Positions 18,041 to 25,711 of a stretch of 64,000 bases of DNA are shown piece by piece. Origin of the DNA: Serratia entomophila (GTDB lineage: Bacteria; Pseudomonadota; Gammaproteobacteria; Enterobacterales; Enterobacteriaceae). Every line of letters starts with the position of its first letter. Position 1 is the first letter of the stretch. The translations under genes and the position numbers were made by a program. The notes beneath the pieces are model-generated. The model did no database searches and was not told where the DNA came from. It was given only the letters and a program-made list of their open reading frames with translations. The DNA lies in NCBI RefSeq assembly GCF_021462285.1, contig NZ_CP082787.1:2542001-2606000 (forward strand), written 5' to 3'.

Positions 18041-19765
18041 AGCACATTACTATCTGCACAATCTGTCGGTTACGACAACGCGTTCGGCACCCTGCTGAGC
18101 GAGGTTTCCTTCAGCCTGAAAAAAGGCGATCGCATCGGTCTAATCGGCCATAACGGCTGCGGCAAAAGCACCCTGCTGAAAATCCTCAGCGGCGACCTGC
18201 CCGCCGGCGCCGGCAACGTAACGATGTCGCACCAGTGCCTGATGGCGCGGGTGGAACAACACCTGCCGGAAGCGCTGCACGCCTGCACCCTGTTGGATGC
18301 GGTGCTGGCGCGATTGCCGCCAAACCAACATCTGAGCGAACGCTGGCGCTGCGAGGCGTTGCTGGCCAGCCTGGGGTTCACCGCCGAAACCTGGACGCTG
18401 ACCGCCGGCACCCTCAGCGGCGGCCAACATACGCGCCTGTTGCTGGCGCGCGCGTTGATCCGCCAACCGGACCTGCTGCTGCTGGACGAACCCAGCAACC
18501 ACCTGGACCTGCCCACCTTGCTGTGGCTGGAAGGGTTCCTGCAAAACTGGTGCGGCAGCTTTGTGCTGGTGTCCCACGATCGCTATTTGCTGGATCAGGT
18601 GACCAACTGCACCTGGATTTTGCGCGACCAGACGCTGCAATTCTTCCGCTTGCCCTGCTCCGCAGCCCGCCTGGCGCTTGAGGAGCAGGATGCCGCGGAC
18701 GCGCACCGCCGCCAGGCCGAGCAAAAAGAGATCGATCGGGTGGAGAAGAGCGCCCACCGTCTGGCGGTTTGGGGCCGGGTGTACGACAACGAAGATCTGG
18801 CGCGCAAGGCCAAGCAAATGGAAAAACGCGTCGACCGCCTCAGGGAAGAACAAACTACGCTGACCGCCGGCAGCCAGTGGCGGTTGCGGCTGCAGGGGGA
18901 AGCGCTCGACGCCGATCGCCTGCTGGCGCTGCCGCAGCTGGACGTGCGGCCGGCGGCGGATGCGCCGGTACTGTTCAGCCTCGAGCAACTGCGGGTTAAA
19001 AGCGGCGATCGCATCGCCATCGTCGGGCGTAACGGCTGCGGCAAGTCCTCGTTGCTGCAGCAGCTGTGGCGTGAGTATCGCCAGCCAGACGATCGGCAGG
19101 CGGTATTCCATCCGCGGGTGCGGATAGGCTATTACGATCAAAGCCTGCAGCAGCTGCGCGATGAGGACAGGCTGAACGAAGCCCTGACGCATTTCGCACC
19201 GCTGACCGAAGAACAGCGGAAAATGGCGCTGATTGGCGCCGGCTTCCCCTACCTGCGCCATCAGCAGCAGGTCCGCTCGCTGAGCGGCGGCGAGCGCTCG
19301 CGCTTGCTGTTTGTCGGCCTGACGCTGGCCAACCATGGTCTGCTGTTGCTGGATGAGCCCACCAACCATCTGGATATGGCGGGTAAAGAAGAGCTGGCGG
19401 AAACGCTGCGGCAGTTTTCCGGCGCGGTAATGCTGGTGACCCACGATCGGATGCTGATCGAACAAAGCTGTAACCGCTTTTGGCTGATTGACCAACGGCA
19501 GTTGACCGAGTGGCACGATCTGGCGCCGGTCTACCAGCGGTTGGCCGGGGAGCATGCCGGGGAAGCCTCGTTGCCACCTCGGCAGGCCGTGGCCGCCGAC
19601 AGCGCGTCGCCGGATGACGAGGACGCGTTTCTGAACGCCCTGCTGCTGCTGGAAAGCAAACTGCAGGAAGATCTGGCGCGTAAACCTAAGCACCAAAAAC
19701 CGGAACTGCAGGCGCGTTGGCGCCGGGAGATAGCAGAAATAACCGCCCGTCTGAACCTGGGCTAA
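18038..19765 (+). CDS. ABC-F family ATPase (ribosome-associated)
   Basis: Soluble protein of 575 residues with two ABC ATPase domains and no membrane helices, as in ABC-F factors that bind the ribosomal E site. Domain 1: GLIGHNGCGKSTLLK, signature GTLSGGQHTRLLLARAL, Walker B LLLLDEPSNHLD. Domain 2: AIVGRNGCGKSSLLQQ, VRSLSGGERSRLLFVG, LLLLDEPTNHLDMAG. The interdomain linker (about residues 220-285) is charged and helical (QKEIDRVEKSAHRLAVWGR), the part that in antibiotic-resistance ABC-Fs reaches the peptidyl-transferase centre. A C-terminal helical tail follows. With the leader ORF upstream, a drug-protection role is possible, but housekeeping ABC-Fs share these features. Confidence 0.92.
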   Translation: MSTLLSAQSVGYDNAFGTLLSEVSFSLKKGDRIGLIGHNGCGKSTLLKILSGDLPAGAGNVTMSHQCLMARVEQHLPEALHACTLLDAVLARLPPNQHLSERWRCEALLASLGFTAETWTLTAGTLSGGQHTRLLLARALIRQPDLLLLDEPSNHLDLPTLLWLEGFLQNWCGSFVLVSHDRYLLDQVTNCTWILRDQTLQFFRLPCSAARLALEEQDAADAHRRQAEQKEIDRVEKSAHRLAVWGRVYDNEDLARKAKQMEKRVDRLREEQTTLTAGSQWRLRLQGEALDADRLLALPQLDVRPAADAPVLFSLEQLRVKSGDRIAIVGRNGCGKSSLLQQLWREYRQPDDRQAVFHPRVRIGYYDQSLQQLRDEDRLNEALTHFAPLTEEQRKMALIGAGFPYLRHQQQVRSLSGGERSRLLFVGLTLANHGLLLLDEPTNHLDMAGKEELAETLRQFSGAVMLVTHDRMLIEQSCNRFWLIDQRQLTEWHDLAPVYQRLAGEHAGEASLPPRQAVAADSASPDDEDAFLNALLLLESKLQEDLARKPKHQKPELQARWRREIAEITARLNLG

Positions 19766-19772
19766 GCCTCAC

Positions 19773-19799
19773 AGGCCGCCTTTATGGCGGCCTTTTTTA
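19773..19799 (+). terminator. Intrinsic terminator after the ABC-F gene
   Basis: Stem AGGCCGCC (19773-19780) and GGCGGCCT (19786-19793) with five-base loop and a TTTTTTAT tail. Textbook form. Confidence 0.92.
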
Positions 19800-19830
19800 T
19801 CACATCTGTCGATGAATGGCCTTTTCGGAT

Positions 19831-21210
19831 TCACGTCGTCGGTTTGATCGGCTCTACGTGCCCTATGGCGCGTGAAATGGCCGGGTAATCCGCCCGCAAC
19901 CGGCGTTCTATTCGGTCGACCGCGTCATGCGCCGCGACAATGCTTGCCGCCGGCGAAACCCGGCAGTGGAAATTGACGATAATGCCGGCGCGGGTCTTGC
20001 GGGCGCGGATGTTATGCACGTCCTGCACCCTTTCCCCCTGTTCCACCGCCGCTTTCAGGAGCAGGCTGATATCGGCCAGCTCGCCCGGCGTCACGTCTTC
20101 GCTGGCCAGCCAGTGCGGCGTTTGCGGCTCCAGGTGCGTTTCAATCTCGGTGTCTTCGCCGATGGCCTGGCGCAACAGAGTTTCTATTTCGCTGGCGATA
20201 TCATGCGCCTGCGCCACGCTGGCGCTGGCCGGCACTGCCAGATCCATGCTGATCGACATGCGCGAAGGCAGCTGCTGCAGCGCCAGGTTCTGCACCTGGG
20301 CGCCGTGGTTGGCGGCAATCGCCCGGATGCGCGTCGCCATATCCTCGTCGCTGCGGGTTTGCGGGATGGCGATCGTCGTCACCTGGGCATTGGGATATTG
20401 CTCTCGCAGCCGCGCGGCGATGTCCAGCTTCAGGGCATCGATGCGTTCGAGCGGCAACGTGCGGCACACCGCCACCGTCACCTCGACAAACAGCGCCGCC
20501 CCGGCGTTGCGAATACGGATACTCTCACAGGATAAAATGGCCGGGAATGGCGCAAGCGCGGCGGAAATCGCCTCTTTTGCGCCGGCCGGCGCCGCGTCCA
20601 TCAAGGAATCGAACGAGCGCTTTCCCAGCTTGAGAGCCGCCGCAAAGATAAAGCAGGCGACGATCAGCGCCGCAATGGCGTCGGCGCGGCCAAACCCCAG
20701 CAGCACGAAGAAAATCCCCAACAGCACCACGCCGGATGACAGCATGTCGGAGAAGAAATGCAGCGCATCGGCCTCCAGCGCTGCGCTGTCGGTGGCTTTC
20801 GCCACGCGGTTCAGCGCCCGCACGCGGAAAAAGTCGACGGCAATCGAAATCAACAACACCGCAATCACCAGCGGCGCCGCGACAATCTCATGCGGCTGGC
20901 CCAGCAGGCTGCTGCCGGCTTCATAGACAATCCAGCCCGCGGCGGCCAGCAACAGCAACACTTCAAACAGCGCCGCCAGGTTCTCCACTTTGCCGTGGCC
21001 GAAGTGGTGATCGTCATCGGCGGGCTTATCGCTGATGCGCACCGCCAGCCAGGTAATGCTGGTGGCGATAAAATCGGTAAAAGAGTGGATCCCTTCGGAT
21101 ATCAGGCCAATACTGCCGGTAAAGATACCGGCGACAAACTTCCCTACAGCCAACAACCCGCTGGCGATCATCGAGTTTCTGGCCACGATCAGTTTTTCAT
21201 TTTGCATCAT
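19831..21210 (-). CDS. Cation diffusion facilitator (metal efflux) with extended C-terminus
   Basis: Inner-membrane metal/proton antiporter of 459 residues; start ATG 21210 (MMQNEKLIVARNSM), with 21207 equally possible. Six helices cover about residues 10-205. Metal-site motifs are HSFTDFIATSI (helix 2) and EADALHFFSDMLSS (helix 5), the HxxxD pair of the family, preceded by DDDHHFGHGKVE in the loop. The typical protein is about 300 residues; here residues 210-459 contain what look like three successive ferredoxin-like modules (LEPQTPHW, then DISLLLKAAVEQGERVQDVHNIRARKTRAG split over the last one), so the cytoplasmic part is enlarged. It is the last gene after the mgtE and small-protein genes, 22 bases from the 59-aa ORF. 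Confidence 0.9.
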   Translation of the reverse strand: MMQNEKLIVARNSMIASGLLAVGKFVAGIFTGSIGLISEGIHSFTDFIATSITWLAVRISDKPADDDHHFGHGKVENLAALFEVLLLLAAAGWIVYEAGSSLLGQPHEIVAAPLVIAVLLISIAVDFFRVRALNRVAKATDSAALEADALHFFSDMLSSGVVLLGIFFVLLGFGRADAIAALIVACFIFAAALKLGKRSFDSLMDAAPAGAKEAISAALAPFPAILSCESIRIRNAGAALFVEVTVAVCRTLPLERIDALKLDIAARLREQYPNAQVTTIAIPQTRSDEDMATRIRAIAANHGAQVQNLALQQLPSRMSISMDLAVPASASVAQAHDIASEIETLLRQAIGEDTEIETHLEPQTPHWLASEDVTPGELADISLLLKAAVEQGERVQDVHNIRARKTRAGIIVNFHCRVSPAASIVAAHDAVDRIERRLRADYPAISRAIGHVEPIKPTT

Positions 21211-21232
21211 GCGGCTCACATTCGGTGGTGAT

Positions 21233-21412
21233 TTATTTTTTTACTTTAGCGGATAATTGCCAGACAAAGGCGACCAGCAGCATGCTGCCTGAGAAGGTTA
21301 ACATCAAACTGGTAAGAAATTCCGATTTTCCCGTGGTGGTGTAATAGATTTCATTTACGCCAACGGAAATCATTAAAATTGCGTAGAGTAATCCAAGGAT
21401 AAGCATCATCAT
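21233..21412 (-). CDS. 59-residue two-helix membrane protein
   Basis: Small gene with a GGAG ribosome site ten bases upstream of three successive ATGs (start could be any of 21412, 21409, 21406). The protein has two hydrophobic segments: LILGLLYAILMISVGV (residues 4-19) and, after a short polar turn YYTTTGKSEF, LTSLMLTFSGSMLLVAFVW (33-51). It ends in the basic tail AKVKK. It would sit in the inner membrane as a hairpin with cytoplasmic C-terminus. It lies between the MgtS-like gene and the metal-efflux gene, all on the same strand with short gaps, so it is probably part of the same transcript. I recognise no family. Confidence 0.65.
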   Translation of the reverse strand: MMMLILGLLYAILMISVGVNEIYYTTTGKSEFLTSLMLTFSGSMLLVAFVWQLSAKVKK

Positions 21413-21443
21413 GATCGTTACACTCCATTCTTCGGCAACGCTT

Positions 21444-21524
21444 TCAGCGTTCCATTAAATCCTCCCCATAAAAAAATAAAACCGTTACGGGGAGGATGCC
21501 TCTAGGCGGATCTTTAGCGTTCAT
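21444..21524 (-). CDS. Possible 26-residue ORF coupled to the MgtS-like gene
   Basis: Starts inside the MgtS-like stop codon (TAATGA overlap), the arrangement of translational coupling. The peptide begins MNAKDPPRGILPVTVLFFYG and is only weakly hydrophobic. It has no ribosome site of its own beyond the end of mgtS. A nine-base inverted repeat (21459-21467 with 21489-21497) lies inside it, so the DNA could instead be a regulatory hairpin. Low confidence. Confidence 0.25.
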   Translation of the reverse strand: MNAKDPPRGILPVTVLFFYGEDLMER

Positions 21525-21616
21525 TAATCATCCCATTTGGTGCTCATATAGGCGGCCAGCAGGCCCAGTGAGCTGATCATTCCCAGGAATCCTATAAAAA
21601 TCGTCATGTTTCCCAT
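21524..21616 (-). CDS. mgtS: MgtS-like 30-residue membrane protein
   Basis: Single-helix inner-membrane protein of 30 residues with a good ribosome site (GAGG, eight bases before ATG). The sequence opens MGNMTIFIGFLG and ends LLAAYMSTKWDD. From memory, E. coli MgtS (31 residues) has GNM near the start and ends LAAYFSHKWDD, so spacing and both ends agree. In E. coli MgtS accumulates in low Mg2+, binds and protects the MgtA importer and modulates PitA. Here it follows the M-box-controlled mgtE gene on the same strand instead of standing alone. The likely role is tuning a Mg2+ transporter, perhaps MgtE; that partner is inference. Confidence 0.75.
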   Translation of the reverse strand: MGNMTIFIGFLGMISSLGLLAAYMSTKWDD

Positions 21617-21630
21617 TATTTTGTCCTCGG

Positions 21631-21687
21631 TTAACTGTTATCGATAAAAACCTCTTTAATTAAAAAGCGGATTCGGTCTTTGCCCAT
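21631..21687 (-). CDS. Possible 18-residue ORF before mgtS
   Basis: Reads MGKDRIRFLIKEVFIDNS, with GAGGAGGG 11 bases upstream of its ATG, a strong but rather distant ribosome site. It ends 14 bases before the mgtS start. It could be a leader peptide or a chance frame in the mgtE-mgtS gap. Confidence 0.25.
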   Translation of the reverse strand: MGKDRIRFLIKEVFIDNS

Positions 21688-21721
21688 TGCGTTTAACGCC
21701 CTCCTCATCATTTGATAACAT

Positions 21722-21742
21722 CCCCGCCCGATTAAGGCGGGG
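21722..21742 (-). other. GC hairpin right after mgtE
   Basis: CCCCGCC (21722-21728) pairs with GGCGGGG (21736-21742) six bases past the mgtE stop on the minus strand. There is no T tract, so read-through into mgtS is expected. It may protect the mgtE message 3' end or set relative expression. Confidence 0.5.
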
Positions 21743-21747
21743 TTCGG

Positions 21748-22770
21748 TTAAATGCCCAATACGTACTGGGCGATTTTGAAGTAAATAATCAGGCCGGTGC
21801 CGTCGATAAAGGTGGCGATAAAGGGCGCCGACACCACCGCCGGATCGATACCCAGCCGTTTGAGCAGCATCGGGATGATAGACGATACTATGGCGCTCCA
21901 CAGGGTGATCGCCACCAGCGACAGGCTGACCACCAGCGTGACGTCGACGCCCACCCCCATGATCCAGGCGCGCACCCAGGCCGCGATGCCGATGGTCACG
22001 GCAATCAGCAGCGAGGTAGAGACCTCCTTGCGGATCACCGCCCCCAGATTGCGCAGGCTCACCTCGCCCAGCGCCATGGCGCGCACCAGCGTCGAGGTGA
22101 TCTGAGTGCCGCTGTTGCCGCCGGTGCCGATCAGCAACGGGATGAAAAACGCCAGCGCAATCGCCGCTTCCAACTGATCTTCAAATGCCTTCAGCACGTT
22201 GCCGGTATAGGCTTCGGCAACGAACAGCATCAGCAGCCACACCGATCTTTTACGCCACAGCGCCCAGGGGCTGGTCTCCAGATAGGGTTTGTCCAACGGC
22301 AGGCTGGCGCCCTGGCGCTGCGCGTCTTCGGTATTTTCGTCTTCGAGCAGACGGGCGATTTCCCGCTCGCCGAGCACGCCGACCAGCGTGTTGTTGGCCA
22401 CCACCGGCACCACGTCCAGCCCGCCCTTGCCCAGCAAATGCGCGACGTCGTTGCGGTCGTCTTCGGGCGAAACATGGAAGTAGCTGTGATTCATCATCAC
22501 GCCAACGGCTTTATCGTCATCTTCGCACTGCAGCAGCTTTTTTACCGACAGCGTGCCGCGCAAATGATAATCGTCCGCGGTGATAAACAGCTGGGTGGGA
22601 ATTTCATCCGTTTTTAACTGTGAAAGAAAATACGCCCTGGCTTTATTAACCGTCATATTGCCGGGAACGGTAATAAAATCGGCGGTCATATAGCCGGCGA
22701 CAGAAGACTCATCGAGAGCGTCGCCGTCGGCCAGCGCCGGGGAAAGGTATTGTTGATGTGACTTGTTCAT
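21748..22770 (-). CDS. mgtE: MgtE-type Mg2+ transporter, short form
   Basis: Inner-membrane Mg2+ channel of 340 residues. Residues about 25-150 form two CBS domains (AGYMTADFITVPGNMTV and VGVMMNHSYFHVSPEDDRND, then DVVPVVANNTLVGVLGEREI). Five hydrophobic segments follow, with the pore signature FIPLLIGTGGNSGTQITSTL and the last-helix signature GIDPAVVSAPFIATFIDGTGLIIYF split over its length. Classical MgtE has about 450 residues because of an N-terminal superhelical gating domain; that domain is absent here, the protein starting almost at the CBS pair. Expression is probably set by the M-box upstream. Family is certain; gating without the N domain is a notable variation. Confidence 0.92.
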   Translation of the reverse strand: MNKSHQQYLSPALADGDALDESSVAGYMTADFITVPGNMTVNKARAYFLSQLKTDEIPTQLFITADDYHLRGTLSVKKLLQCEDDDKAVGVMMNHSYFHVSPEDDRNDVAHLLGKGGLDVVPVVANNTLVGVLGEREIARLLEDENTEDAQRQGASLPLDKPYLETSPWALWRKRSVWLLMLFVAEAYTGNVLKAFEDQLEAAIALAFFIPLLIGTGGNSGTQITSTLVRAMALGEVSLRNLGAVIRKEVSTSLLIAVTIGIAAWVRAWIMGVGVDVTLVVSLSLVAITLWSAIVSSIIPMLLKRLGIDPAVVSAPFIATFIDGTGLIIYFKIAQYVLGI

Positions 22771-22777
22771 TGTTAGT

Positions 22778-22817
22778 CCCTATTTCTGTTTAAACTTCAA
22801 CAGCGAATCGCATAGGG
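22778..22817 (-). promoter_or_regulatory. Ribosome-site hairpin (expression platform) of mgtE
   Basis: On the minus strand CCCTAT (22812-22817) can pair with ATAGGG (22778-22783), the latter being the only Shine-Dalgarno-like stretch, eight bases before the mgtE ATG. A nested CTGTT/AACAG pairing strengthens it. This would let the riboswitch act at translation. Confidence 0.6.
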
Positions 22818-22846
22818 GCGCAACCAAAGAGGGAGTGCAGACAGCC

Positions 22847-23012
22847 TATCTCCGCGTCCAGGTTTTAGCACTATACAACGTATCCGATCGATAAATCAGA
22901 AGTTACCTTGGGCTGAACCTTAATCCGATAAAGCCTGTCTTAACCTTGGGCATCTCTCGATGTCGTCAGATCAGTAACCTGTGTTTGTATAGGAGCCTCG
23001 CCAAACGAGATA
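22847..23012 (-). promoter_or_regulatory. M-box (ykoK) Mg2+ riboswitch
   Basis: The minus strand of this 166-base stretch shows the M-box core: GGCGAGGCTCCTATAC near the 5' side and GTATAGTGCTAAAACC near the 3' side, closed by TATCTC (from 23012) with GAGATA (to 22847). The segments AGGCTCCTATA and AGTGCTAAA are the most conserved M-box strings and pair through the complementary TATAC/GTATA bases. It ends 76 bases before the mgtE start. High Mg2+ should fold it and shut off mgtE. Between it and 23121 is only a probable promoter region with no gene. Confidence 0.85.
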
Positions 23013-23120
23013 CTGCATATAAACTACCGGCGCAGTATAGGCGGTGTTTCTCTCACCGGGAAGGAAATGTTCTCTGCCGTTTATGGAGTATTTAGGAAAC
23101 TGTTATTTAGAATGAAATCC

Positions 23121-23146
23121 ATAAAAAAGGCCGATGTTAATCGGCC
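23121..23146 (-). terminator. Intrinsic terminator of the peptide-binding-protein gene
   Basis: Minus-strand stem GGCCGA (23141-23146 complement) and TCGGCC (23129-23134 complement), six-base loop, followed by TTTTTTAT. It lies 15 bases past the stop at 23162. Confidence 0.85.
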
Positions 23147-23161
23147 GGTTTTATTTATTAT

Positions 23162-24784
23162 TCAGTGCGCAACAATATAGGCGTTCTTATCATACAATGC
23201 TCCCTGCCGCGTAAAGTCGATGCCCTTCACATAGGGTTTGACCAACGTGGCGTTCGCTTCATAATAGACCGGCGCCACCGGCGTATCCGCCGCCAGCAAG
23301 TCTTCCGCCTGCTGGAAATAGTGCTGCACCTGCTGCGGCGTTTGCGCCGCGGTGGCCTGATGCAGAATGCGGTCATAGTTCCCGTTGCGGTACTTGGGGC
23401 TGTTTTCACTGCTGGCGGAACGGAAAACGTTCAGGAAGGTGGAAGGATCGTTGTAGTCCGCCAGCCAGCGGGTAAAGGCCACGCTGTACTGCCCGCGGTT
23501 AATGCTGTCCAGGGTGACCTTGCGCTCCTGGCTTTGCAACCTGGCCTCGACGCCAAGGTTCTTTTTCCACATCGCGCTGCTGGCGATGACGATTTTCTTG
23601 ATGGTAGCGTCGTTGCTGTACAACAGGGTAAAGCGCAGCGGATTAGCGGCGTTAAAGCCGGCCTCCGCCAGCAGCTTTTGCGCCTGCGCGAGGCGCTGTT
23701 CACGCGTCCAACCCGCCGCTTCGCCCGCTTTCAGGCTATAGCCGCCCGCCCCGGTGGGGGTGAAGGTCCAGGCCGGCTGTTGGCCGTAGCCCAGCACCTT
23801 GCCGGCGATAATGTCCTTGTCCAGCGCCAGATTAAGCGCCTGCCGCACGCGCACGTCATTAAACGGCGCCTGCTGGTTGTTAAACGCAAAGTAGCTGGTG
23901 GACAACAGCGGATAGGTCACCAACTGCTCATCTCCCAGGGTTTTCTTCAGCCGTTGATACAGCTCCGGCGGCGTGGTGTAACCCAGTTCGATTTCACCGG
24001 CGCGGAAACGTGCGACTTCGGGGAACCCTTGCAGCGGCAGGAAAGTAACCTTGTTCAGCCGGGTATTGGCGTTGTCCCAGTATTGTGGATTGCGCTCCAC
24101 CACCAGCTTCTCATTCACCACCCACTGGCTGAGGCGAAACGCGCCGTTGCCGACAAAATGCGCCGGCTGGGTCCAGTCTTTGCCGTACTTTTCCACCACC
24201 TTTTGATTCACCGGCAGTACCGGGAAATGCACCAACTGCTTCAGCAAATAAGAATTGGGTTCGGCAAGCGTCACCTGCAGCGTATGCGCATCCAGCGCCC
24301 TCACCCCCAGCTCGCTCGGCGGCTTGCTGCCGGCGTTGATCTCCGCCGCGTTGAGCACATAGGCCGAGGCCAGATAGCTGCCGTACGGCGAAGCGGTTTT
24401 CGGGTCGGTCAGGCGCCGCCAGCTGTAGACGAAATCGCCGGCGGTAACGGGATCGCCGTTGGACCACTTGGCCTGCGGCCGCAGATGGAAGGTCCAGACG
24501 TTGCCCTGTTGCTCCCATTTCTCTGCCAGCGCCGGGATCACCTCGCCTTTTTTGCCCACCCGCAACAGCCCTTCGAACAGATCGTTGAAGATGTAAAACT
24601 CCACGTTGCTTTCGGCCAGGTTAGGGTCCAGCGTCGCCGGCTCATAGCCGTTGGCGCGCACCAGCTCCTGGGTTTCCGCCAGCTTGACGCCGGCCGGCAC
24701 CTCTGCGGCGCTAACGCCGGCCACCGGCGACAAAGAGCAGACGATTAAACCAGCCAGAATCTTGGTATTGAATGAATGTTTCAC
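23162..24784 (-). CDS. Periplasmic oligopeptide-binding protein (OppA/MppA type)
   Basis: Periplasmic peptide-binding protein of 540 residues. The start is a GTG at 24784 (read MKHSFNTKILAGLIV) because AGGGA stands seven bases before it and a signal peptide follows, cut at GVSA/AEVPAGVKLAE; the longer frame to 24826 would bury the signal. The mature N-terminus AEVPAGVKLAETQELVRANG is the OppA/MppA opening. SBP family 5 motifs: ATLDPNLAESNVEFYIFNDLFEGL split after residue 60, and AKWSNGDPVTAGDFVYSWRRL. Permease genes are not adjacent, as for E. coli mppA, which borrows the Opp permease. Ligand (peptide or murein tripeptide) cannot be fixed. Confidence 0.9.
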   Translation of the reverse strand: MKHSFNTKILAGLIVCSLSPVAGVSAAEVPAGVKLAETQELVRANGYEPATLDPNLAESNVEFYIFNDLFEGLLRVGKKGEVIPALAEKWEQQGNVWTFHLRPQAKWSNGDPVTAGDFVYSWRRLTDPKTASPYGSYLASAYVLNAAEINAGSKPPSELGVRALDAHTLQVTLAEPNSYLLKQLVHFPVLPVNQKVVEKYGKDWTQPAHFVGNGAFRLSQWVVNEKLVVERNPQYWDNANTRLNKVTFLPLQGFPEVARFRAGEIELGYTTPPELYQRLKKTLGDEQLVTYPLLSTSYFAFNNQQAPFNDVRVRQALNLALDKDIIAGKVLGYGQQPAWTFTPTGAGGYSLKAGEAAGWTREQRLAQAQKLLAEAGFNAANPLRFTLLYSNDATIKKIVIASSAMWKKNLGVEARLQSQERKVTLDSINRGQYSVAFTRWLADYNDPSTFLNVFRSASSENSPKYRNGNYDRILHQATAAQTPQQVQHYFQQAEDLLAADTPVAPVYYEANATLVKPYVKGIDFTRQGALYDKNAYIVAH

Positions 24785-24934
24785 GACGATATCCCTGATA
24801 AGTATTTTGTCGTCGCTAATATTCACTGAAGCAGTGAAATAAATTAAATCATTAATCGCTATGACTCATAACCAAAAGCCGTGATGAATTTCTTTCATTA
24901 TCAAGGTAATACCGGCGCAGTCTTTGAAGCAACC

Positions 24935-25711
24935 TTAACTGAAGCCCCGCCGGCGCCTTTGCATCAACGTCAAATAAGTGACCAGGCTGATAATCACCAC
25001 CAAAAACAGGCCGCTGGTGCTGGCTGCGCCCAACCCAAGGCCGCCATTATCGACCGGCTGCGAGAGCAGATCGCCGCAGGAGGCGCCAAAGGGCCGCGTC
25101 AGCACATAGGCTATCCAGAAACAGAGTATGCTGTTGGCCTTGAACAGATAATGCGCGGCGGCGGTAACGGCAATCAGCGCGCCGAACAACCAGGCCGAAT
25201 TGACGTAGCCCAGCCGCCATCCTTCCGCCACCCAGTCACCGGCGGCGGTGCCGAGCGCGAAGGTGAACAAGATAGCCAACCAATAAAACAACTCCCGTTT
25301 GGGTGTATCGATGGCGTGAATGGAAAGCGTGCGTTCGCTCCGATGCCAAATGACGAAGGTTGCGGCCAGCAACAGGCTGAACAGGCCGGTGGAAAATGCC
25401 AGCGAGACGCCAAAATGGTCAGTCAGATTATCAGTGATTAACGTGCCGAAGACGCTGATCAGCACCACGGCGATCCAGTACAGCGGGGGAAGATAACGTC
25501 GAGCGCGAATTTGGAAAAACAGCGCCGCCAGCAACAAGCCGCCGGTAATCAACGAAGTCTTGGTCAAGCCGAAATTAAGATCCATATTGAGATAATCGGC
25601 GGCCGTTTCCCCCACCGTGGTGGACATCATTTTGATCAGCCAGAAAAATAAGGTGACTTCCGGCACTTTATTCAACCGGTGAAGCGCATTCTTTGCCTTA
25701 GGTGACAGCAT
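24935..25711 (-). CDS. DUF347-repeat membrane protein
   Basis: Inner-membrane protein of 258 residues with eight hydrophobic helices. It is built of DUF347-type repeats, each with a polar Gly-Glu/Asp core inside the membrane: KMMSTTVGETAADYLN, VFGTLITDNLTDHFGV, FALGTAAGDWVAEGW and LTRPFGASCGDLLSQP. These regularly spaced acidic residues suggest an ion pathway, but no function is established for the family (COG4705). It ends in the basic tail MQRRRRGFS. It stands alone between the peptide-binding gene and sfuA; the 311-base gap to sfuA holds the sfu promoter. Confidence 0.82.
   Translation of the reverse strand: MLSPKAKNALHRLNKVPEVTLFFWLIKMMSTTVGETAADYLNMDLNFGLTKTSLITGGLLLAALFFQIRARRYLPPLYWIAVVLISVFGTLITDNLTDHFGVSLAFSTGLFSLLLAATFVIWHRSERTLSIHAIDTPKRELFYWLAILFTFALGTAAGDWVAEGWRLGYVNSAWLFGALIAVTAAAHYLFKANSILCFWIAYVLTRPFGASCGDLLSQPVDNGGLGLGAASTSGLFLVVIISLVTYLTLMQRRRRGFS

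Follow-up and report, generated by a model that had tools for sequence, protein, structure and literature searches.

A conserved M-box gene group of Serratia entomophila with mgtE, mgtS, a two-helix protein and a cation exporter, and its possible role in Mg2+ starvation

We analyzed a window of 64,000 nucleotides from the 5.1-Mb genome of Serratia entomophila (NZ_CP082787.1, positions 2,542,001 to 2,606,000). On its minus strand, from position 23146 to 19831, the terminator of an oppA-like gene is followed by an M-box Mg2+ riboswitch, mgtE, mgtS, a gene for a 59-residue membrane protein (s59) and a gene for an exporter of the cation diffusion facilitator (CDF) family. This cluster is real and conserved, and more than a chance neighborhood. 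We lean towards reading it as a dual-sensor operon for Mg2+ starvation, which would combine Mg2+ uptake, transporter protection of the MgtS type and removal of competing metals. Apart from s59, the components are of known kinds, and it is their combination that appears to be new. Neither mgtS behind an M-box nor this cluster was found described in the open-licence literature searched, which was available in excerpts. The one paper that names both MgtS and the M-box treats them apart (PMC8844918).

At low Mg2+ outside the cell, PhoP would act through a reverse-orientation box, and low Mg2+ in the cytoplasm would keep the M-box open, leave the mgtE ribosome site free and let transcription continue. 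If the genes are co-transcribed, MgtE would import Mg2+, and MgtS, together with s59 and perhaps a peptide encoded at the position of E. coli mgtT, would hold or tune membrane transporters, most likely MgtA encoded elsewhere in the genome. The CDF protein would expel zinc, iron or cobalt entering or misbinding while Mg2+ is scarce. Upon recovery of Mg2+, the M-box would close, and hairpins would limit expression of the distal genes.

Parts of the cluster and their conservation

A prior reading of the window, made from the sequence only, had proposed an M-box, a short MgtE importer, a MgtS-like protein of 30 residues, a 59-residue two-helix protein and a CDF exporter with an enlarged cytoplasmic part, on one strand with short gaps and the M-box ahead. 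All of these parts and this arrangement were found at the locus, and the order is kept in relatives. The M-box matches RF00380 over its full length (positions 1-169 of 169; 141.8 bits against a gathering score of 44). The 340-residue MgtE scores above the TIGR00400 cut-off (238 against 232.75 bits) and matches PF01769 (112 bits) and, in two stretches, PF00571. Its alignments start at position 133 of the TIGR00400 model and at residue 153 of Thermus MgtE, indicating that the N domain of canonical MgtE is missing. MgtS exceeds the cut-offs of the curated model NF033842 (65.8 against 35 bits) and of the Pfam MgtS-like family (38.6 against 27), and the pairwise differences in its gene are distributed over the three codon positions as 304/106/703 (15 loci).

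The s59 gene is under purifying selection, with proportions of synonymous differences (pS) of 0.53-0.84 against nonsynonymous ones (pN) of 0.07-0.20 in 16 relatives. Its product was modeled as a two-helix hairpin, with a mean predicted local distance difference test (pLDDT) score of 87 and a predicted template modeling (pTM) score of 0.63. The possibility that mgtS and s59 are random open reading frames (ORFs) was ruled out by the curated model for MgtS and by the selection test. No Pfam or NCBIfam model matched s59 above its cut-off, the best ones (UPF0542, exosortase P) being at chance level, and no Pfam family matched its relatives above cut-off. Altogether 61 protein hits were obtained, those with a named source coming from Serratia, Chania and Gibbsiella; relatives are also present at two Yersinia loci. 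The CDF protein, with three ZT_dimer stretches in 462 residues, does have the enlarged cytoplasmic part, and its gene lies outside positions 21233-23012, to which the cluster had been assigned. Two ORFs had been missed altogether, one at the mgtT position (21524..21444) and one of 18 codons upstream of mgtS (21687..21631), as had a covarying hairpin within the first of them.

Table 1. Features of the cluster, in order of transcription (positions in the window)
Feature	Position	Strand	Basis or remark
Intrinsic terminator of the upstream oppA-like gene	23129..23146	(-)	7-pair stem and six T; separates the group from oppA
Candidate reverse-orientation PhoP-box-like site, TAAATA-N5-TAAACG on the transcript strand	23078..23094	(-)	10/12 matches
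Candidate -10 hexamer TATACT	23034..23039	(-)	38 nucleotides from the PhoP-box-like site
M-box Mg2+ riboswitch aptamer	22843..23016	(-)	RF00380, 141.8 bits
Hairpin CCCUAU/AUAGGG over the likely mgtE Shine-Dalgarno sequence; possible translational expression platform	22778..22817	(-)	Fold
mgtE, 340 residues: CBS pair and membrane domain, without N domain	21748..22770	(-)	Family models
GC-rich hairpin directly 3' of mgtE, without U-tract	21722..21742	(-)	Fold, z -1.53
Candidate 18-codon upstream ORF, ending 14 nucleotides before mgtS	21631..21687	(-)	Positional counterpart of E. coli CDS58
mgtS, 30 residues	21524..21616	(-)	NF033842, 65.8 bits
ORF at the mgtT position, 26 codons; its ATG shares the last base of the mgtS stop	21444..21524	(-)	Position as in E. 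coli
Hairpin CCUCCCC/GGGGAGG between mgtS and s59, inside the mgtT-position ORF	21459..21497	(-)	Covariation
s59, 59-residue two-helix membrane protein	21233..21412	(-)	Selection, homologues, model
CDF-type cation exporter, 462 residues, three tandem ZT_dimer domains	19831..21219	(-)	Domain models, predicted structure

Within the genus, the genes mgtE, s59 and CDF, which were the ones counted, are adjacent, in order and on one strand in 25 of 30 genomes. One full-size genome (G337) has s59 without mgtE and CDF, and four genomes of 1.5-3.6 Mb have none of the three. Absence of the small ORFs from close relatives that retain mgtE and the CDF gene had been named as a refutation of the earlier proposal; s59 is lacking in 0 of the 25 genomes. 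The nearest case, outside the genus, is Yersinia ruckeri (L127:5506-5600), in which mgtS is degenerate with an early stop and the M-box, mgtE, s59 and CDF gene are kept.

The full set of mgtE, mgtS, s59 and CDF gene was found at 16 of 22 fetched enterobacterial CDF loci (15 from Serratia, and Yersinia nurmii), and at 15 of the 16 named Serratia loci that are not cut by a contig end. An M-box was detected in seven of the ten loci on which Rfam was run. Among the other loci, one is cut by a contig end and two, from Budvicia, have the CDF gene but none of the other genes. In S. silvae, mgtE is reduced to 36 MgtE-like residues (47% identity), and the mgtS, s59 and CDF frames are intact; a suspected interruption of its CDF gene turned out to be the normal gene end. 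At the Biostraticola tofi (B. tofi) locus there is no mgtE and no recognizable s59. Both species have another mgtE elsewhere.

We then asked which genes belong together across the family (149 genomes from 148 genera). MgtS above cut-off was found in 31 genomes, s59 in 6, this CDF type in 5 and the M-box in 29. Five of the 31 have an M-box ahead of mgtS on the same strand, at a distance of 1.3 kb or less. In two of these (G000, which is the genome of the window, and G216) mgtE lies in between, whereas in three, from three genera as grouped by the tool, it does not (G208; G267, S. silvae; G301, B. tofi), and M-box and mgtS are separated by 195, 265 and 403 nucleotides, respectively. All six s59 genes stand behind mgtS, but most genomes with mgtS (25 of 31) gave no s59 hit. 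At 57% identity or more, MgtE of this type is encoded in 28 family genomes; G000 and G216 are the sole ones in which mgtS or s59 adjoins it, and a tblastn search behind such mgtE genes in eight other genomes found no mgtS, s59 or CDF gene on that strand. Because mgtS can follow the M-box without mgtE, and because only 2 of 28 mgtE genomes have the small genes, s59 belongs to mgtS and not to mgtE; mgtE and the CDF gene are lineage-specific companions. The earlier proposal that the small proteins are tied to mgtE is thus not supported.

An M-box mgtE in one genome (G229) has beside it, on the other strand, a 60-residue ORF (L171:5914-6096) that is weakly s59-like (E 3e-4, small set).

Predicted control by the M-box and PhoP

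The M-box is described as an off-switch at high Mg2+ (PMC12810186). As elsewhere in the family, the aptamer stands directly ahead of an MgtE-type gene; here, in contrast, mgtS, the mgtT-position ORF, s59 and the CDF gene follow. In the fold of five of seven M-box leaders, a stem covers the likely mgtE ribosome site, but without covariation, since all leaders that have it carry the same letters. M. tuberculosis offers a precedent for a translational M-box that acts with Rho (PMC12810186). Its pe20 operon likewise has an M-box before a polycistron, a translational platform, small ORFs and Mg2+ genes; Rho action has been demonstrated there (PMC12810186), whereas here the genes are different ones and Rho action is presumed.

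The genome contains a second M-box-mgtE pair (G000:C1:1426010-1427244, L075), whose MgtE is 63% identical; none of the other 29 genomes of the genus has two mgtE genes of this kind (E 1e-80). A tandem pair of M-box-mgtE units is present in G209 (C1:1968140-1970803), a genome with MgtS and without MgtA hit. A search of plasmid sequences yielded two Proteus records that match a 206-base piece, which overlaps the M-box.

Salmonella mgtA is under the control of PhoP plus a leader RNA. The locus in the window is predicted to sense Mg2+ both outside and inside the cell in a similar way, with different means: the M-box stands in for the mgtA leader, and a candidate reverse box for the direct box of Salmonella mgtA (PMC3335776). 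The orientation of the predicted box and its place 38 nucleotides from the candidate -10 hexamer fit PhoP architecture V (30-58 nucleotides), but it has 10 of 12 matches and a shuffle p of 0.147; reverse PhoP boxes of Salmonella lie 30, 37, 47, 48, 49 and 58 nucleotides upstream of the -10 hexamer (PMC3335776). We compared 26 M-box leaders; 10 of the 30 M-box loci (L056-L064, L066) and L075 were left out for lack of a match to the search motif, as were three M-box matches without a locus. The best site of a 20-nucleotide search stretch scored 9 or more in 23 of the 26 leaders, and in 17 of the 26 it lay at -85 to -87 from the anchor. The mean score at -86 was 6.54 against 3.84 over all positions (standard deviation of position means 0.63). 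The leaders come from related genera, which are not independent. The gap between box and -10 hexamer was 36-39 nucleotides in 14 of 15 leaders measured, which were hand-picked among the 26 for an exact TATAAT, TATACT or TATAGT and an accepted box. Taken together, this suggests dual control by PhoP and the M-box, a suggestion that is weak in the window alone. Since the PhoP-box-like site is common to M-box leaders of many genera (L037-L055, L065 and others), PhoP control of M-box genes may, judging by these leaders, be general in Enterobacterales.

Besides the choice of the best site in a search stretch and the relatedness of the leaders, several findings weigh against the dual-sensor operon. 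The PhoP-like site in the window is not significant by itself, as seen from its shuffle p, and 12 of 16 regions tested missed p 0.05 (4 reached it). The E. coli mgtS promoter, taken for comparison, has a best PhoP-like site of only 8 of 12 matches (p 0.98), and mgtE is described as not PhoP-regulated in other bacteria (PMC3207850). The hairpin over the likely mgtE ribosome site (z 0.53) is no stabler than shuffles. No M-box lies near mgtS in 26 of the 31 MgtS genomes, and none was found at the 11 loci examined among 58 that carry this CDF type outside Enterobacterales. Three of the 31 MgtS genomes (G209, G294 and G301, the last being B. tofi) have no MgtA hit. Finally, the earlier statement that no terminator interrupts the cluster stood only in part. 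A pattern scan listed no intrinsic terminators between the genes on the minus strand, but the gaps contain two hairpins that lack a proper U-tract. One follows mgtE and the other is part of the mgtT-position ORF, and both could end or weaken transcription ahead of s59 and the CDF gene.

The same hairpins fit an account in which the genes are neighbors and not a unit, with the M-box governing translation of mgtE only, mgtS having its own promoter as it does in E. coli, and the CDF gene being expressed separately. A hairpin over the mgtE ribosome site would affect mgtE alone, and a conserved stretch directly precedes mgtS. Moreover, mgtS can have its own promoter, because in two genomes (G276, G221) both mgtS and s59 are present and no M-box reaches the gathering threshold. 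On the other hand, the M-box precedes mgtS without mgtE in three genera, the gene order is common to Serratia and Yersinia nurmii, and a promoter scan of positions 19000-25000 gave no excess (2 found, 2.7 expected). We regard this account as possible but rather doubtful.

In G208, a hairpin followed by seven U was noticed by eye between M-box and mgtS; the pattern scan does not list it, and we do not claim a terminator there.

MgtS and the adjoining small ORFs

In E. coli MG1655, the annotated mgtT start takes in the final base of the mgtS stop codon, and mgtS is preceded by CDS58, the third small coding sequence of the group (PMC12350097). The locus in the window has the same features, namely an ORF with the same one-base overlap and a GC-rich hairpin, and a short ORF upstream. 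In E. coli, however, the group stands alone, with the MgrR RNA on the opposite strand (PMC12350097), whereas here it is placed between mgtE and s59-CDF behind an M-box. STnc560, the Rfam family that matches the place of E. coli mgrR, has no match in the window.

The ORF at the mgtT position starts with a one-base overlap in 20 of 23 loci and directly after the mgtS stop in two, and it has no start there in Y. nurmii. Its N-terminus, MN....P..IL, is common to most Serratia rows, and its tail is variable. Codon tests took 15 of the 23 loci. Neither the mgtT-position ORF (158/108/125 over 12 codons) nor the 18-codon ORF, whose frame is open in all 15 Serratia loci used (374/654/443), shows a third-position bias, and we therefore claim neither of them as a conserved peptide. 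For the hairpin inside the mgtT-position ORF, 16 of the 23 loci were aligned; 99.4% of cells are paired among these 16 sequences, and 3 of the 10 pairs have changed on both sides. In L088 and L091 it ends in five T, the run starting at the last stem base. Ahead of mgtS (21656-21617, minus strand), a stretch resembling GAGG-TTTATCGATAACA-TTAACC-GAGGA is well conserved in most aligned Serratia loci; it is also present in S. silvae, where mgtE is lost.

E. coli MgtS protects MgtA from FtsH and also acts on PitA (PMC10710835, PMC13209247). Two MgtA-type pumps are encoded elsewhere in the S. entomophila genome. Across the family, an MgtA hit was found in 28 of the 31 genomes with MgtS above cut-off and in 49 of the 118 others (Fisher p 6e-7, uncorrected for relatedness); counting only MgtA hits above cut-off, the numbers are 27 and 48 (G219 and G293 fall below).

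Tentatively, MgtS, the mgtT-position ORF and s59 might form one small-protein unit that different lineages have put under an M-box, with partners that are not MgtE or MgtA alone but include the triple-domain CDF protein. If so, the tiny membrane proteins would link uptake under Mg2+ starvation to a gated exit by which competing metals leave the cell.

It seems rather unlikely that MgtS mainly serves the PitA phosphate symporter or the CDF protein, with MgtA as one partner among others, a view that is compatible with the operon reading. B. tofi (99% complete), the most telling of the three MgtS genomes that gave no MgtA hit, has an M-box, mgtS and the CDF gene, which argues for a further role of MgtS besides MgtA, and the action on PitA in E. 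coli (PMC10710835) points in the same direction. The frequency of MgtA-type hits among MgtS genomes, and the presence of two in this genome, speak against it. The cluster lets one test what MgtS acts on. In E. coli, mgtS sits apart from transporters, whereas here gene order and M-box tie it to a Mg2+ channel, s59 and an exporter, and natural deletions could separate the partners: mgtE is missing from the S. silvae and B. tofi loci, MgtA gives no hit in B. tofi, and G208 is without a CDF gene of this type.

The CDF exporter and its substrate

The exporter has the hallmarks of the CDF family: a Cation_efflux domain, ZT_dimer and metal-site residues on transmembrane helices (TM) 2 and 5. The model (mean pLDDT 82.6, pTM only 0.47) shows six TM helices and, in a row, three domains of the alpha-beta-beta-alpha-beta fold. 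The number of TM helices, the metal-site pairs on TM2 and TM5 with their spacing of four residues, and a C-terminal domain of the ZT_dimer type are shared with YiiP/FieF and other CDF proteins. The differences are the three tandem C-terminal domains, a histidine in place of aspartate at the first TM2 position, and scores below the FieF equivalog cut-offs (NF050169, 187 of 420 bits; NF007064, 160 of 447 bits). The enlarged part is no peculiarity of this locus, since long CDF proteins of this kind are common: of 7997 candidates scored, at least 1437 reached E 1e-80 or better.

The residues H402, H418, H454 and E456 of the third C-terminal domain align to the H, H, H and E/D of CzrB and YiiP, which in YiiP bind zinc. 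The metal sites in the membrane are H45-D49 and H154-D158. The DxxxD in TM5 that is the hallmark of Mn-CDFs is not present in this protein, which has H154xxxD158 instead; Zn- and Fe/Zn-CDFs are told apart from Mn-CDFs by their HxxxD in TM5, and a histidine in TM2 is found in Zn-CDFs and parts of the Fe/Zn group (PMC1868760). The neighbors of such CDF genes elsewhere gave no clue to the substrate, neither as Rfam matches (11 loci) nor in ORF lists inspected by eye (14 loci). Based on the H-D/H-D metal site, a transition-metal substrate is expected, and the protein probably exports zinc, iron or cobalt, not Mg2+. Mg2+ is an unlikely substrate, and we know of no CDF protein that carries it.

This bears on the sequence-only reading, in which a single Mg2+-sensing transcript balances import by MgtE with export by the CDF protein and the tiny proteins act on both: adjacent genes in fixed order on one strand and the transporter-acting MgtS peptide of E. 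coli (PMC10710835) agree with it, but we consider it improbable, because an operon switched off by its M-box at high Mg2+ should be on at low Mg2+, when Mg2+ export would be futile, because the CDF protein has the metal site of Zn- or Fe/Zn-CDFs, and because mgtS follows the M-box without mgtE in three genomes and neither small gene accompanies this MgtE type in 26 of 28. Under the dual-sensor operon, Mg2+ starvation and transition-metal efflux are predicted to belong to a single response of these bacteria.

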